A stretch of DNA of 46,255 nucleotides from Minisyncoccota bacterium (GTDB lineage: Bacteria; Patescibacteriota; Minisyncoccia; UBA6257; 2-01-FULL-56-20): contig JANWIW010000018.1 of NCBI GenBank assembly GCA_025449695.1, positions 1-46,255 of the forward strand, in the 5' to 3' direction. A program made the translations under genes and the position numbers. The notes beneath the pieces are model-generated. The model worked only from the letters and a program-made list of their open reading frames with translations, was not told where the DNA came from and made no database searches. Every line of letters starts with the position of its first letter. Position 1 is the stretch's first letter. Shown here piece by piece: positions 4,372 through 36,626 of the stretch.

Positions 4372-5058
4372 ATGCCGGTCGCAAGATATTTCCGCAAAGA
4401 CTTCTTTGATACATGGACCCCGGAGATGGCATACATCCTCGGTTTCATGTTCGCGGACGGGGCAGTATGGCGCGGGAAGAGGGGAAATTGGTTTTTCGCT
4501 TTTTACTCCAATGACCTGGAGATCATAAAAACCATAAAATCCGTCCTGGAATCGGAGCATAAAATAGGGGTTAAAAGGCGGTCAAGCGAAGAGCATCCCA
4601 ACTGGCGGACCGGTTATTTGCTTCAGATTGGGAGTAGGATGTTATGCCAAAGATTGGCTACCCTTGGCGTTACGCAGAATAAAAGTCTGACGATGACCTT
4701 TCCGATCGTACCTCTCGAACTAATCGGTGATTTTACCCGGGGGTATTTTGACGGCGATGGCAGTGTGAACTTCGGGAGGTATTGGCGCAAAGACCGTAAC
4801 CAATGGAAATATCAACTTACGGTCAACTTTACTTCAGGTAGCAAAGCGTTCTTGGAAGGATTGTTTCACGCTGTTCGTAGTTACACGAACGGCGGCAGGA
4901 TTGGCATTAAAAAACGAGGATACGAACTCGTATTCGGCCGCCATGATTCGGTTGCATTATATAGGTTAATGTATAATAATGTCCCCGCGGGACTTTTTCT
5001 GAATCGCAAACTTGCGATCTTTCGGAGAGCGTTCCAAAAACTTCATCTGCGGCCGTAG
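4372..5058 (+). CDS. LAGLIDADG homing endonuclease overlapping tRNA-Asp
   Basis: A 228-aa protein with two LAGLIDADG motifs, LGFMFADG at residues 23-30 and RGYFDGDGSV at 123-132. This is the monomeric two-motif arrangement, and both carry the catalytic acidic residue. Such proteins make site-specific DNA breaks that drive intron homing; some act as maturases. It is AT-richer than its neighbours, a sign of mobility. It does not lie inside the group I intron of the following tRNA but directly upstream of that tRNA. Its last codons CGG-CCG-TAG are nucleotides 2-10 of tRNA-Asp. Start ATG 4372 is likely but not certain; in-frame GTG 4339 and 4348 are alternatives. TATACT lies directly before the ATG. 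Confidence 0.9.
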   Translation: MPVARYFRKDFFDTWTPEMAYILGFMFADGAVWRGKRGNWFFAFYSNDLEIIKTIKSVLESEHKIGVKRRSSEEHPNWRTGYLLQIGSRMLCQRLATLGVTQNKSLTMTFPIVPLELIGDFTRGYFDGDGSVNFGRYWRKDRNQWKYQLTVNFTSGSKAFLEGLFHAVRSYTNGGRIGIKKRGYELVFGRHDSVALYRLMYNNVPAGLFLNRKLAIFRRAFQKLHLRP

Positions 5059-5332
5059 CTCAATTTGGTTAGAGCACCGCCCTGTAGATAACCCTGCAGC
5101 TCCGAAAAGAAATTTTCGGATGAACATTCCGGGATAACGGTGAAGGCTAAGTTCGAAAGAATACGCTAATACCGTGGGAACCTCAGGATCGCGCGATCCG
5201 AGGAGCGCCGTAGAGACTAGATACCGGAGCGCCTAAGTTCGCGAGAATAAGGCGAAGATATAGTCCACTCCTTTATGAAAGTAGAGGATAAGTGCACGGC
5301 GGGGGTTGCCGGTTCAAGTCCGGTCGGCCGCG
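5049..5332 (+). tRNA. tRNA-Asp(GTC) interrupted by a group I intron
   Basis: 5' exon 5049-5085 and 3' exon 5295-5332 join to a 75-nt cloverleaf. Acceptor GCGGCCG/CGGCCGC, D stem GCTC/GAGC, anticodon stem CCGCC/GGCGG, loop CTGTCAC with anticodon GTC, T stem GCCGG/CCGGT, discriminator G. CCA is not encoded. The intron lies between positions 35 and 36 in the anticodon. The first 10 nt are also the end of the LAGLIDADG gene. A perfect terminator hairpin follows at 5341. Confidence 0.93.
5086..5294 (+). ncRNA. Group I intron in the tRNA-Asp anticodon loop, 209 nt
   Basis: Core elements are visible. P1: exon CTGT (5082-5085) pairs with GCAG (5096-5099), giving the required U-G pair at the splice site. 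P2: TCCGAAAA/TTTTCGGA. P4: ACGGT/ACCGT. R element GACTAGA (5215-5221) and S element AAGATATAGTCC (5255-5266) form P7 (GACTA/TAGTC). P8: CGCCT/AGGCG. The last intron base is G5294. The intron contains no ORF. Self-splicing is inferred from these motifs. Confidence 0.9.
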
Positions 5333-5340
5333 CTGAGGGG

Positions 5341-12058: not shown

Positions 12059-15000
12059 CGGCGGGTCCCGCGACCATCTCTCCTCCGACCATCGCTACTT
12101 GGAGAGCCTGGAGTTCGATCCCGCCCTGCGCAAGAGCTGGTTGAACTTCTTCGTGTCCAATTTCAGGGTCATCTTCCTTCTCATCGTCCTCGTGTCGGCC
12201 TGGGGGCTTTACGCGTTCTTCACCCTGCCCCGCGAATCCAATCCCGAGGTCAAGATCCCCATCGCCGTCGTCACCACCGTCTATCCCGGGGCATCGCCTT
12301 CCGACGTGGAGGAGCTCGTGACCAAGAAGCTCGAGACCGCGGTCGCAGGCCTCAAGGGTCTCGACAAGGTGACCTCCAATTCCGCTAACTCGCTCTCCGC
12401 CATCACCGTCGAGTTCGATCCCAAAGAGGATCTGGAAGGATCCATCCGCAGCCTGCGCGACAAGGTCTCCGCGGTCCGTTTTACCCTGCCTTCCGAGGCG
12501 AGAGAGCCGCAGGTCACGGAGATATCCCTGAACGACCAGCCGATCTACACGGCCGTAGTCACCGGTCCCTACGACGGTTTCGCGATGCGGAACTACGGCG
12601 AGGATATCCAGGCCGACATAGAGAAGGTCCCCGGCGTGCGCACGGTGCACATCTCCGGGGGCGACATCCGCGAGTTCGAGGTCGCTTACGATCCCCAGAA
12701 GCTCATTTTCTACGGCGTGTCCGCGGACCAGGCCAACCAGGCCATCGCGGCCACCAACCTGGCCATTCCCGGCGGCAACTTTGAGGGCCAGAAATTCGTG
12801 TATCCCATCCGCTCCGACTCCCGTCTGCGCACCGTGCAGGACCTGGGCGGCATCGCCGTGGGCCGTTCCGCGGCGGGCGGCGTAATCCTGCTCCGGGACG
12901 TTGCCGCCGTGGCCGAGAAAGCCATCGAGCGTACGGTATACTCCCGCATCTCGATCGGCGGATCGGAGCCGAAAGACTCCATGACCTTGTCGGTCGTGAA
13001 GCGCACCGGCAGTTCAATCCTGGACACGGTGGACCAGGCGGAACGAGCCATCGATGCCAGGATCGCGGCCTTGCCCCCGGGTATCCGCTACGAGACTACC
13101 CTCGACATGGCCAAGTTCGTGCGGGACGACTTTGATCAGCTGACCCATGACTTCCTGCTGACCCTGATTCTCGTCTTCGGCATACTTTTCTTGATCGTCG
13201 GCCTGAAGGAGGCCTTCGTGGCAGGCCTCGCGATCCCTCTGGTATTCTTCGTGACCTTCGGCGTTCTCCAGCTTCTGGGCATATCCCTGAACTTCCTCTC
13301 GGTCTTCTCGCTCATCCTGGCATTGGGCCTCCTCGTGGACGACGCAATCGTGGTGGTCTCCGCGACCAAGCAGGACCTGAACACCGGCAAGTTTACCCCG
13401 GAGGAGGCGGTGCTTCTCGTACTGAACGATTTCAAGGTGGTCCTGACCACGACCACCCTGACCACCGTGTGGGCGTTCCTTCCGCTTCTTTTTTCGAGCG
13501 GCATCATGGGCGAGTACATCAAGTCCATACCGGTCACCGTATCCATCACCCTGCTCGCGTCCCTGGCCATCGCGCTCATGATCAACCATCCCCTGGCCGC
13601 GGTCCTGGAACGGATCCGCCTTACCCGCCGCACCTTCTTCGGCCTGGAGTTGCTCCTCGCCCTCACCGCCGCGGCCTTCTTTTATGCCGGAGGGTGGCTT
13701 GGCTACGCCCTCGGCGTGATCACACTCCTGGCCGAGATCTGGATGATCGTATGGTACGAGCGCGGAGGGCGTGCCCGCCTGGAAGGGAACGCGGCTTTGG
13801 TGGAGGCGGAATGGGCGGACGAGAGATTGATCAAAAGAAAGCTTAAGGAACAGGGGAACCGGGAAGAGTCTTCATTTCTCGGACGCTTGGTCCATGGCAT
13901 CATCCATTTCAACAGGATACTGCCGCTTTACGAAGCCTACCTCCAGCGCGTGATCGCGACGAGGCGCCGCCGCATCGCGACCCTTGCGGTCACCGGAGCG
14001 CTTTTCGTGTTCGCCCTGGCCCTTCCGGCTGTTGGCATAGTGCAGAGCGAGTTCTTCCCGCCTTCCGACCAGGGATATATCTACGTGGAGGTGCGCACGC
14101 CGGTCGGCACCCGTATCGAAGAGACGGACAAGGCGGTCCAAAGCGTGGAACAGAAGCTCCTTGCCTATCCGGAGATCGGCAATTTCTCGACCATCGTGGG
14201 CCGTCCCGGCCCGGAAACCCAGAGCTTCCAGGATTCTTCCAATCTTGCGTCCATCACTATATCCCTCAAGGACAAATCCGAGCGCGATAGCGCTTCCTAT
14301 GCCCTGGCCGACCGGATGCGGGAAGATATTGGCGCCGTGGAAGGCGCGAAGGTGACTGTCAAAACGCCGTCCAGCGGCCCCCCGTCCGGCGCCGCTTTCG
14401 AGGCGCGGATAAAAGGAGACGATCTCGGTACGCTGAACAGGATCGCGCGCGACCTTGAGCCCCGACTGGCCTCCATTGCCGGGGTCATCAACACGGACGT
14501 ATCCCTCAAGGATTCCGCCCCGGAATACACATTCGTACTGGATTCCGTGAAACTGCAGCAGAACGGGCTGAACGCGGCTTATGTCGGCTCCATGCTGCGC
14601 ATGGCTATCTCCGGCACGGAGGTGAGTACTGTCCTCGAAGAAGGCAAAGAGACGAAGATTATCGCCCGCTTCGCCAAGGACAAGATACCCAGCCTGGATT
14701 CCGTGCAGAATCTGCAGATCCTGAATATGATGAAGCAACCGGTTTTCCTGAAAGATGTGTCCCGCATCGAGCTGAGGCCGGCGGTTGATTCCATAACCCG
14801 CATCGACCAGAAACGCACCGTGCTTCTCTCGGCGGGCGCGGATTCAACCACGAATTCCACTGCCGTGCTGCAGCAATTCCAGGAGAAGACCAAGGACTAC
14901 CAGCTTCCCGCGGATTATTCGATAACCTACGGCGGCGAGAACGAGCAGAACAACGATTCGGTGCTTTCCATCCTGCGGGCCATGCTCATCGCGATGGTTC

Positions 15001-25806: not shown

Positions 25807-25885
25807 GTCCCACGCCGCTCCTTCGGAGCTTCGCGGGACTCAAGAAAACCTAATCCCGGCACAATGCCGGGAAAAGGTTTTCTAA
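25807..25885 (-). repeat. tRNA 3' two-hairpin module A (after the CAU tRNA)
   Basis: Read on the minus strand, TAGAAAACCT pairs with AGGTTTTCTT around an inner CCCGGCA/TGCCGGG hairpin (25841-25885). A GC palindrome bounded by GTCCC/GGGAC with GCTCC-GAA-GGAGC inside follows (25807-25839). It starts 4 nt after the discriminator base. Confidence 0.75.
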
Positions 25886-25888
25886 TCG

Positions 25889-25961
25889 TGCCGGCGGCAG
25901 GAATCGAACCTGCGACCTAGGGCTTATGAGTCCCTCGCTACTACCACTGAGCTACGCCGGC
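25889..25961 (-). tRNA. tRNA with CAT anticodon (elongator Met or Ile2)
   Basis: 73-nt cloverleaf with perfect acceptor GCCGGCG/CGCCGGC, T arm GCAGG-TTCGATT-CCTGC, loop CTCATAA and discriminator A. Two stem mismatches are seen (13-22 C-T, 31-39 A-G). G1-C72 rules out the initiator class; Met or lysidine-modified Ile cannot be separated by eye. CCA is not encoded. Its first 10 nt are the end of the overlapping 25952-26647 gene. Confidence 0.88.
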
Positions 25962-26762: not shown

Positions 26763-26835
26763 CGCGGGGGGCTGGGAATGGTTTCCCGGGGAGCCCCATA
26801 AGCTTTCGAAGCCGGTTCGATTCCGGCCCCCGCAA
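26763..26835 (+). tRNA. Degenerate or divergent initiator-like tRNA (CAT)
   Basis: T arm GCCGG-TTCGATT-CCGGC and acceptor CGCGGGG/CCCCGCA give a C1-A72 mismatch, the hallmark of bacterial initiator tRNA. D stem TGGG/CCCG and anticodon stem GGAGC/GCTTT around CCCATAA give a CAT anticodon. Unusual: C33 instead of U33, no three G-C pairs in the anticodon stem, no U8, and three bases between acceptor and D stem. An alternative fold uses GCGGGGG/CCCCCGC with a 4-bp T stem. It is followed by the same 3' module as other tRNAs here, which supports a real tRNA locus; it could also be decaying. GCTTGCC-TCGC-GGCAAGC lies upstream (26721-26738). Confidence 0.5.
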
Positions 26836-26839
26836 CTGC

Positions 26840-26940
26840 TAGAAGTCCGTTTGTGAAATCCACCCGTACGGGTGGATTTCACATTACGGATTCTTGCGCC
26901 CCGGCCCCGCATCGAAGTACGGGGTAAACTCCGGCCGGGG
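26840..26940 (+). repeat. tRNA 3' two-hairpin module D (after the initiator-like tRNA)
   Basis: TAGAAGTCCGT pairs with ACGGATTCTT around a perfect 32-nt palindrome (26852-26883, stem GTGAAATCCACCC). A nested GC palindrome follows: CCCCGGCC/GGCCGGGG enclosing CCCCG/CGGGG (26899-26940). From 26941 to pheS no gene is seen. Confidence 0.78.
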
Positions 26941-32700: not shown

Positions 32701-32797
32701 GTCCCCCTTCGCTCCGTTTCGCGGAGCTACGGAAGGACACAAGAAGCCGTAATGCAAAATCCTGCTTATAAGCAGGATTTTGCAAACGGACTTCTAG
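32701..32797 (-). repeat. tRNA 3' two-hairpin module B (after tRNA-Pro)
   Basis: Read on the minus strand, TAGAAGTCCGT pairs with ACGGCTTCTT around a perfect palindrome centred on CTTATAAG (stem TGCAAAATCCTGC). A GC palindrome GTCC...GGAC with GCTCCG-CGAAA-CGGAGC inside follows (32701-32738). Module I starts 4 nt after the discriminator base. Confidence 0.78.
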
Positions 32798-32799
32798 TG

Positions 32800-32870
32800 T
32801 CGGGCCGCCGGGAATCGGACCCGGTCTTTACGCACCCGAAGCGCACGTACTACCGGTATACTACGGCCCG
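32800..32870 (-). tRNA. tRNA-Pro(CGG)
   Basis: 71-nt cloverleaf: acceptor CGGGCCG/CGGCCCG beginning with C1, D stem GTAT/GTAC, anticodon stem TGCGC/GCGTA, loop TTCGGGT (anticodon CGG), T arm CCGGG-TCCGATT-CCCGG, discriminator A. CCA is not encoded. No intron. Confidence 0.9.
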
Positions 32871-36430: not shown

Positions 36431-36554
36431 CCCCGTACTCGATGCGGGGATGATGACTAGCACTGTCCTCCTTCGCCAAGGCTTTCCCACTCCGCTAAAG
36501 CTTCGCGGGACACTTGAAAATCTAAGGCTCGATTACGCGCCTAAGATTTTCTAA
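36431..36554 (-). repeat. tRNA 3' hairpin module C plus GC palindromes (after tRNA-Ala)
   Basis: On the minus strand, TAGAAAATCTTAGGC pairs with GCCTTAGATTTTC (one T-T mismatch; 36515-36554). GTCCCGCGAAGCTTTAGCGG...GGAC follows (36465-36512), then CCCCGCATCGAGTACGGGG (36431-36449), which nearly matches the palindrome in module D. Confidence 0.75.
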
Positions 36555-36555
36555 G

Positions 36556-36626
36556 TGGACCCAGGGAGAATCGGACTCCCACCTCGGCAATGCGAATGCC
36601 GCGTAATACCATTTTACTATGGGCCC
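36556..36626 (-). tRNA. tRNA-Ala(CGC)
   Basis: 71-nt cloverleaf: acceptor GGGCCCA/TGGGTCC with the G3-U70 wobble that defines alanine identity, D stem GTAA/TTAC, anticodon stem CGGCA/TGCCG, loop TTCGCAT (anticodon CGC), T arm GGGAG-TCCGATT-CTCCC, discriminator A. CCA is not encoded. Confidence 0.92.

Follow-up and report, generated by a model that had tools for sequence, protein, structure and literature searches.

The locus

The window analysed here, a stretch of 46,255 nucleotides, is contig C18 of a 983,527-base Patescibacteria genome (a draft MAG). A copy of a short module of two hairpins lies 1-5 nt past the discriminator base of each of four tRNA genes, those for tRNA-Met(cat), an initiator tRNA, tRNA-Pro(cgg) and tRNA-Ala(cgc). 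All four copies were found at essentially the coordinates assigned in a first-pass annotation of the window, and their arms pair as quoted there. The features are the following:

25889..25961, minus strand: tRNA with CAT anticodon (Met or Ile2), host of copy 1 (ARAGORN, Rfam)
25836..25889, minus strand: copy 1, first hairpin, arms AGAAAACCT (+25843-25851) / AGGTTTTCT (+25875-25883) (sequence, model hits)
25807..25839, minus strand: copy 1, second GC-rich hairpin, GTCCCGCG...CGTGGGAC (sequence and fold)
about 26763..26835, plus strand: initiator-like tRNA (CAT, C1/A72), host of copy 2 (extent by eye; sub-threshold cmscan match at 26764-26833)
26840..26898, plus strand: copy 2, first hairpin, AGAAGTCCGT/ACGGATTCT, with a long inner GTGAAATCCACCC palindrome (sequence, alignment)
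26899..26940, plus strand: copy 2, second GC-rich hairpin, CCCCGGCC...GGCCGGGG (sequence)
32800..32870, minus strand: tRNA-Pro(cgg), host of copy 3 (ARAGORN, Rfam)
32735..32801, minus strand: copy 3, first hairpin, AGAAGTCCGT/ACGGCTTCT, with a long inner TGCAAAATCCTGC palindrome (sequence, model hits)
32701..32739, minus strand: copy 3, second GC-rich hairpin, GTCCTTCCG...GAAGGGGGAC (sequence and fold)
36556..36626, minus strand: tRNA-Ala(cgc), host of copy 4 (ARAGORN, Rfam)
36508..36558, minus strand: copy 4, first hairpin, CACTTAGAAAATCT/AGATTTTCAAGTG (sequence, model hits)
36485..36510, minus strand: copy 4, second GC-rich hairpin, TCCCGCG...GTGGGA (sequence and fold)

The initiator tRNA was missed by ARAGORN and by Rfam at gathering score; the sequence itself shows a T-arm, the CAT loop and the ends C1/A72, and cmscan gave a sub-threshold match to the tRNA class only. 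At gathering score the Rfam matches of the window are all tRNAs, and the module matches no Rfam family. In the first hairpin of copy 1 the inner palindrome is CCCGGCA/TGCCGGG, and the TTAG end (+25882-25885) lies towards the tRNA.

The module had been presented as two hairpins common to the four tRNAs. Its first hairpin has proved to be the diagnostic part, since the GC-rich second hairpin varies more and resembles palindromes widespread in these genomes. It is also true of the window that tRNA-Asp, which has an intron, lacks the module; this absence is not a rule, because intron-bearing tRNAs in relatives do carry it (L207, L292, L093). ARAGORN places this tRNA-Asp(gtc) at 5049-5333 of the window, with an intron of ~209 nt, and a strong hairpin with a T-rich tail follows it.

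Conserved frame and covariation of the first hairpin

The module consists of ~70-100 bp of non-coding DNA. The frame of its first hairpin, as seen in 46 copies from many genera, is XY-T-AGAAnnnCT-T-AG...T-T-AGnnn'TTCT-T-Y'X'-YCC, after which comes the GC-rich second hairpin. Two conserved T.T mismatches are located in the first hairpin about one helical turn apart, the inner one in 105 of 113 copies and the outer one in 78 of 113, and they are always on the same strand of the element, regardless of the transcription direction of the neighbouring gene. The base before TAG at the 5' foot is T in 97 of 118 rows, C in 17, A in 3 and G in 1, so that the tag reads TTAG or CTAG.

In the alignment of 11 copies from the module's own genome, on which covariance model R1 was built, 7 of the 12 pairs show two-sided changes, a figure equalled by 0 of 500 shuffles. 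In the 46 diverse copies such changes affect 11 of 12 pairs (again matched by 0/500 shuffles) and number 67, against 15.8 +/- 3.4 in shuffles. Moreover, pairing is kept in 90.1% of the pair cells, whereas shuffles give 75.0 +/- 0.9% and slid structures no more than 52%; the covariation score is 0.371, compared with 0.111 +/- 0.013 for shuffled alignments and at most 0.129 for slid ones.

The earlier observation that the stems change together while pairing is kept is borne out by these figures. The further claim, that such changes are the mark of a selected RNA or DNA structure, holds less well: a selected RNA specific to tRNAs finds no support, whereas the module may be a selected DNA structure. 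As the copies are related repeats, covariation indicates that the fold is kept while they diverge, and is by itself no proof of a functional RNA, a caution which extends to compensatory changes among paralogous repeats in general.

Palindromes with CTTAG-n-CTTAG arms and T.T mismatches were also noticed in Lachnospiraceae, Saprospiraceae and Ignavibacteria (L375, L319, L365, L382, L367, L343). A DNA pattern scan across genome contigs returned mostly unrelated palindromes of other phyla.

Distribution within the genome

In the genome to which the window belongs, the first hairpin lies directly 3' of about 13 of 43 tRNAs, counting the initiator tRNA (3' flanks were printed for 42 RF00005 tRNAs). 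Outside the window, the tRNAs concerned are Ile(tat), Val(gac), Thr(ggt), Tyr, Arg(cct), Glu(ctc), Leu(gag) and Ser(gga); Gln(ttg) has a diverged copy, and at Gly(tcc) and Gly(gcc) the module is found about 63-73 nt downstream, beyond another hairpin. Leu(gag) and Ile(tat), although unlike as tRNAs, have ~120 nt of flank in common. Furthermore, two tandem copies are present in the 23S-5S spacer, just past the 23S 3' end, contig C10 has one copy without an adjacent tRNA, and contig C30 has two after protein genes, with 22 nt of upstream sequence in common and a possible tRNA-3'-like remnant. An unknown structured RNA was considered for the C30 copies and rejected, as Rfam gave nothing convincing.

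Model R1 gave 15 good matches in this genome, mostly directly 3' of tRNAs; with 12 of the 17 copies located directly 3' of a tRNA, a simple binomial test gives p of about 1e-39, a value which, like the other copy-level statistics, counts related copies as separate. In any one genome, copy number does not exceed about 15 matches.

Other arrangements were observed around tRNA genes. A different two-hairpin unit follows all three tRNA-Gly genes (L014, L026, L041), in tandem after Gly(ccc). Some of the tRNAs without the module (L006, L032, L036, L033) show complementarity between leader and trailer, with z of -8.0 for Lys(ttt), -5.2 for Ser(tga), -4.0 for Asp and -3.2 for Phe; such pairing was rejected as a common principle, because only a few module-free tRNAs show it strongly. 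In genomes G000, G009, G028, G026 and G032, a C directly follows nearly every tRNA, though CCA is mostly unencoded.

Spread across the phylum

R1 matches were obtained in 15 of 60 relatives from the family and order and, elsewhere in the order, in 17 of 243 genomes. A second model, R2, gave matches in 17 of 39 close relatives, in 13 of 382 other members of the class and, over the rest of the phylum, in 7 of 378 genomes. The relatives' genomes are draft MAGs, and tRNA contexts are over-represented among the matches because both models were trained mainly on tRNA-flanking copies.

Even so, the contexts are various. Besides tRNA 3' ends they include tRNA 5' ends (with the unit reversed), 16S rRNA 5' ends and 23S 3' ends, and tandem copies were also found. 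Reversed units stand against the ATG of bL27, bL32, bL33, uL11, gyrB, glmS, mraZ, ssb, PNPase, NusG, pilins and others, names that come from reading translated ORF starts. In more distant classes the copies at protein genes are placed at the 5' edge of the Shine-Dalgarno sequence, and in genus g4 a few occur at stop codons and terminators. The start of bL27 carries the module in 5 of 20 genomes checked (those of f58, f86 and f41), with quite different stems. In the congeners G483 (L415) and G443 (L416), bL27 is 91% identical and the hairpins at its start are quite different.

Confinement to tRNA 3' flanks had been proposed as a check on the module, with hits spread randomly and lacking tRNA association to speak against it. 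Such confinement does not hold, and the refuting outcome is half borne out. The model search places the matches in the own genome mostly 3' of tRNAs and those in relatives also at other edges, so that the association is a real one with gene edges generally, not with tRNAs alone.

Two further repeats were seen near tRNAs in the relatives. In G009 and G028, the 3' half of several tRNAs is repeated within ~30-80 nt downstream of the gene, in many cases behind GTGCGGG (L154, L151, L148, L134, L142). A recurring sequence of ~100-150 nt (GGAATCGAACGGGAAAGGGGTCGGG...) has an inverted T-arm at its start and part of a tRNA 3' region at its end (L193 at about 12200-12345, L145, L180, L150, L086); it had no Rfam match at gathering score (L078/L086).

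Polarity and pairing of the foot with the host

The TTAG end of the module faces the gene. In 69 of 113 distinct copies, a set of hits which partly includes training sequences but whose start-codon and tRNA 5' classes were absent from the training of R1, this end exactly abuts an intact tRNA end or ATG (41 tRNA 3' ends, 8 tRNA 5' ends, 20 ATG). The opposite end is flush with a tRNA end or ATG in 0 of 113, compared with 3% for random points of the same loci; a gene is present within 70 nt on that side in 26 of 113, never flush. Of the other 44 copies, many come after the remnant of a tRNA 3' end, after a tRNA with an intron or after a further copy. Since copies upstream of genes carry the reverse complement in RNA, no single RNA sequence can be the conserved thing. 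The constant feature is the polarity of the DNA strand, with the TTAG end towards the gene and the T.T mismatches on that strand.

Pairing extends beyond the element. Among the 76 TT-form copies the two outermost element positions are paired in 59 and 57, and the next base outward, which belongs to the host, makes a Watson-Crick pair with the element in 56, against 30 expected; the second host base outward shows no excess (17 vs 22.7 expected). The foot pair is C-G at tRNAs, the C being that after the discriminator, and T-A at ATG, with the T of the reversed ATG. The AA form gives the same picture, in 22 of 23 copies. Part of this match could reflect lineage, because genomes differ both in context and in element letters; in the mixed genomes G021, G006, G483 and G572 both versions of the foot occur inside one genome.

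Descent or dispersal

Between congeners (G009/G028 and G026/G032), the tRNAs that have the module differ. An obligatory tRNA trailer was therefore rejected, the module being patchy both among tRNAs and between congeners. With related copies counted as separate, identity over the variable columns is 0.585 within genomes vs 0.515 between them (permutation p<0.0005). When copies from different genomes are compared, those sharing an isotype (0.506) are no closer than those at different isotypes (0.530).

Two loci allow sites with and without the module to be compared. At tRNA-Thr(ggt), the flank which in G028 lies directly after the tRNA (C, then AAAAATTTTGCAAAAT...TATACTTTTTTC) is found in G009 beyond the module, with an alignment score of 52 where shuffles reach at most 33. 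At tRNA-Gly(tcc) the downstream gene aligns between both genomes, and G028 has a module-bearing insert of >100 nt after the tRNA where G009 has a short spacer; the junction is gappy. Both comparisons show insertion directly behind a tRNA, the first with a clean empty site and the second with a weaker one; loss in the other lineage, for instance at tRNA-Thr in G028, could give the same picture. As the module is patchy, clusters by genome and has these two insertion comparisons, its fold may be kept as the form in which the element spreads and not from any need of the tRNA.

Search for a mobiliser

No match to the Y1 (HUH) transposase (PF01797) was obtained in the own genome, and none was detected in the six module-rich carriers G003, G006, G013, G020, G021 and G028. 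The gene is present in 10 of 28 genomes tested, including the carriers G019, G404, G443, G483 and G579. The 10 Y1 loci examined have no flanking module; in G019 alone one lies nearby by chance, next to an IS200 copy whose ends are unrelated to it. A Y1 enzyme (RAYT/IS200) was thus rejected as mobiliser, also on account of its absence from several carriers. One tyrosine recombinase match was found in the own genome.

Interpretation

A patchy, phylum-wide repeat with one fixed end flush with gene edges looks like a mobile DNA hairpin and not like a tRNA-processing signal. On balance, we favour the view that the module is a dispersed, REP-like and strand-specific non-coding DNA hairpin repeat which has spread in Patescibacteria by inserting its TTAG end exactly at gene edges. 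This view draws on the observed dispersal pattern, tandem copies and shared tRNA flanks included, on polarity and covariation, on one clean and one weaker empty site, and on the base pairing of foot and host; transposition itself, through a single-stranded DNA intermediate and an enzyme, would be the process behind them. Against it count the negative Y1 searches in this genome and in several module-rich ones, the Y1 loci without a flanking module, and the repeated occurrence at bL27 starts, which selection for function could also produce.

The element would insert with its TTAG end against a gene edge, most often at the first base beyond the 3' end of a tRNA. Folding as single-stranded DNA is probable for the strand that has the T.T mismatches: that these mismatches stay on one strand, whatever the direction of transcription nearby, speaks for a DNA strand being recognised in its folded form. 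By analogy with REP/IS200-IS605 elements, an enzyme probably acts on that folded strand, and the host-base match at the foot might arise either from guide-target choice or from copying during insertion. It is also possible, with less confidence, that the module is a hairpin mobile element of a new kind which targets gene or RNA ends by means of an enzyme unrelated to Y1 transposases (for example one that works on R-loops, RNA ends or cDNA ends), its foot being adapted afresh to the target base whenever it inserts.

If the repeat does spread in this way, flush insertion at the edges of tRNA and rRNA genes, Shine-Dalgarno sequences and start codons, without breakage, would be an unusual solution for safe insertion into the tightly packed small genomes of Patescibacteria. 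Moreover, the polarity rule and the pairing with the host base lead to a concrete, testable mechanism of target choice.

Selection for a structure at RNA boundaries, by which the hairpin would insulate or protect RNA ends (3' trailers, and 5' leaders near the ribosome-binding site) and would have spread by gene conversion and been maintained by selection, is unlikely. It would account for the strong covariation, for the exact placement at functional edges (tRNA ends, Shine-Dalgarno edge, ATG) and for the frequency of translation genes among the adjacent protein genes, and it draws its weight chiefly from the recurrence at bL27 starts in f58, f86 and f41 genomes despite differing stems. Yet most tRNAs lack the module and congeners differ; polarity is fixed in the DNA, so that 5' and 3' copies give opposite RNA sequences with the same strand-specific T.T mismatches; similarity between copies tracks the genome, not the gene; and insertion at an empty site points the same way.

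We regard as quite unlikely that the module belongs to REP/RAYT or IS200/IS605 single-stranded transposition, its own Y1 transposase having disappeared or being missing from this assembly. Imperfect hairpins outside genes, with mismatches and a polarity of the strand, match descriptions of REPs (PMC8266576, PMC3733652), and some carriers have Y1 genes; however, the GTAG tag is replaced by TTAG or CTAG, several near-complete carriers have no Y1 gene, and the Y1 loci have no module at their flanks. Finally, intrinsic terminators of tRNA genes sharing sequence by chance are highly improbable: many copies have A/T-rich arms and a GC inner stem, and ordinary terminator hairpins follow some tRNAs in relatives, but the consensus has no U-run after either hairpin (3' side CTTRTGYCCC), several stems are not T-rich (e.g. 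AGAACCGC/GCGGTTCT), and copies also lie upstream of genes or beyond existing terminators.

Comparison with known systems

A literature search, with most subscription journals outside its reach, found no description of this element. The attC sites of integrons have a conserved outer frame and a variable paired centre, and are recombined as a folded strand. The module has such a frame and centre too; unlike attC, its consensus on inspection has no RYYYAAC/GTTRRRY (R''/R') boxes, no array accompanied by an integron integrase was seen, and the own genome has the single tyrosine recombinase match mentioned above.

Palindromic families without a dedicated transposase are known among the CGTC-tagged repeats (e.g. 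Rickettsia RPE; PMC3733652). The module is like them in both respects and differs in tag, frame and placement.

The REPs are short, non-coding, strand-specific extragenic imperfect palindromes, with conserved mismatches and stem subfamilies that have alternative paired letters (PMC3733652, PMC8266576). Like the REPs served by TnpA_REP/RAYT, the module is a short imperfect extragenic palindrome with stem covariation. A GT[AG]G foot, a flanked Y1 gene and high copy number were not found: in contrast to GTAG REPs, the module has TTAG or CTAG with the AG inside the stem, a foot paired with a host base and a flush position at gene edges, its copies do not exceed about 15 per genome, and the own genome is without RAYT.

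In REP and IS200/IS605 hairpins, the unpaired bases and the strand matter (PMC8266576, PMC6006769). The ends of IS200/IS605 are hairpins acted on as single strands, with base pairing between the element and the target flank (PMC6006769). Two hairpins and pairing with the host base were observed in the module as well, but its geometry differs from that of a non-autonomous element of this group: the tetranucleotide guide lies 5' of the hairpin in IS200/IS605, whereas the flank complement of the module lies on the 3' side of its first hairpin.
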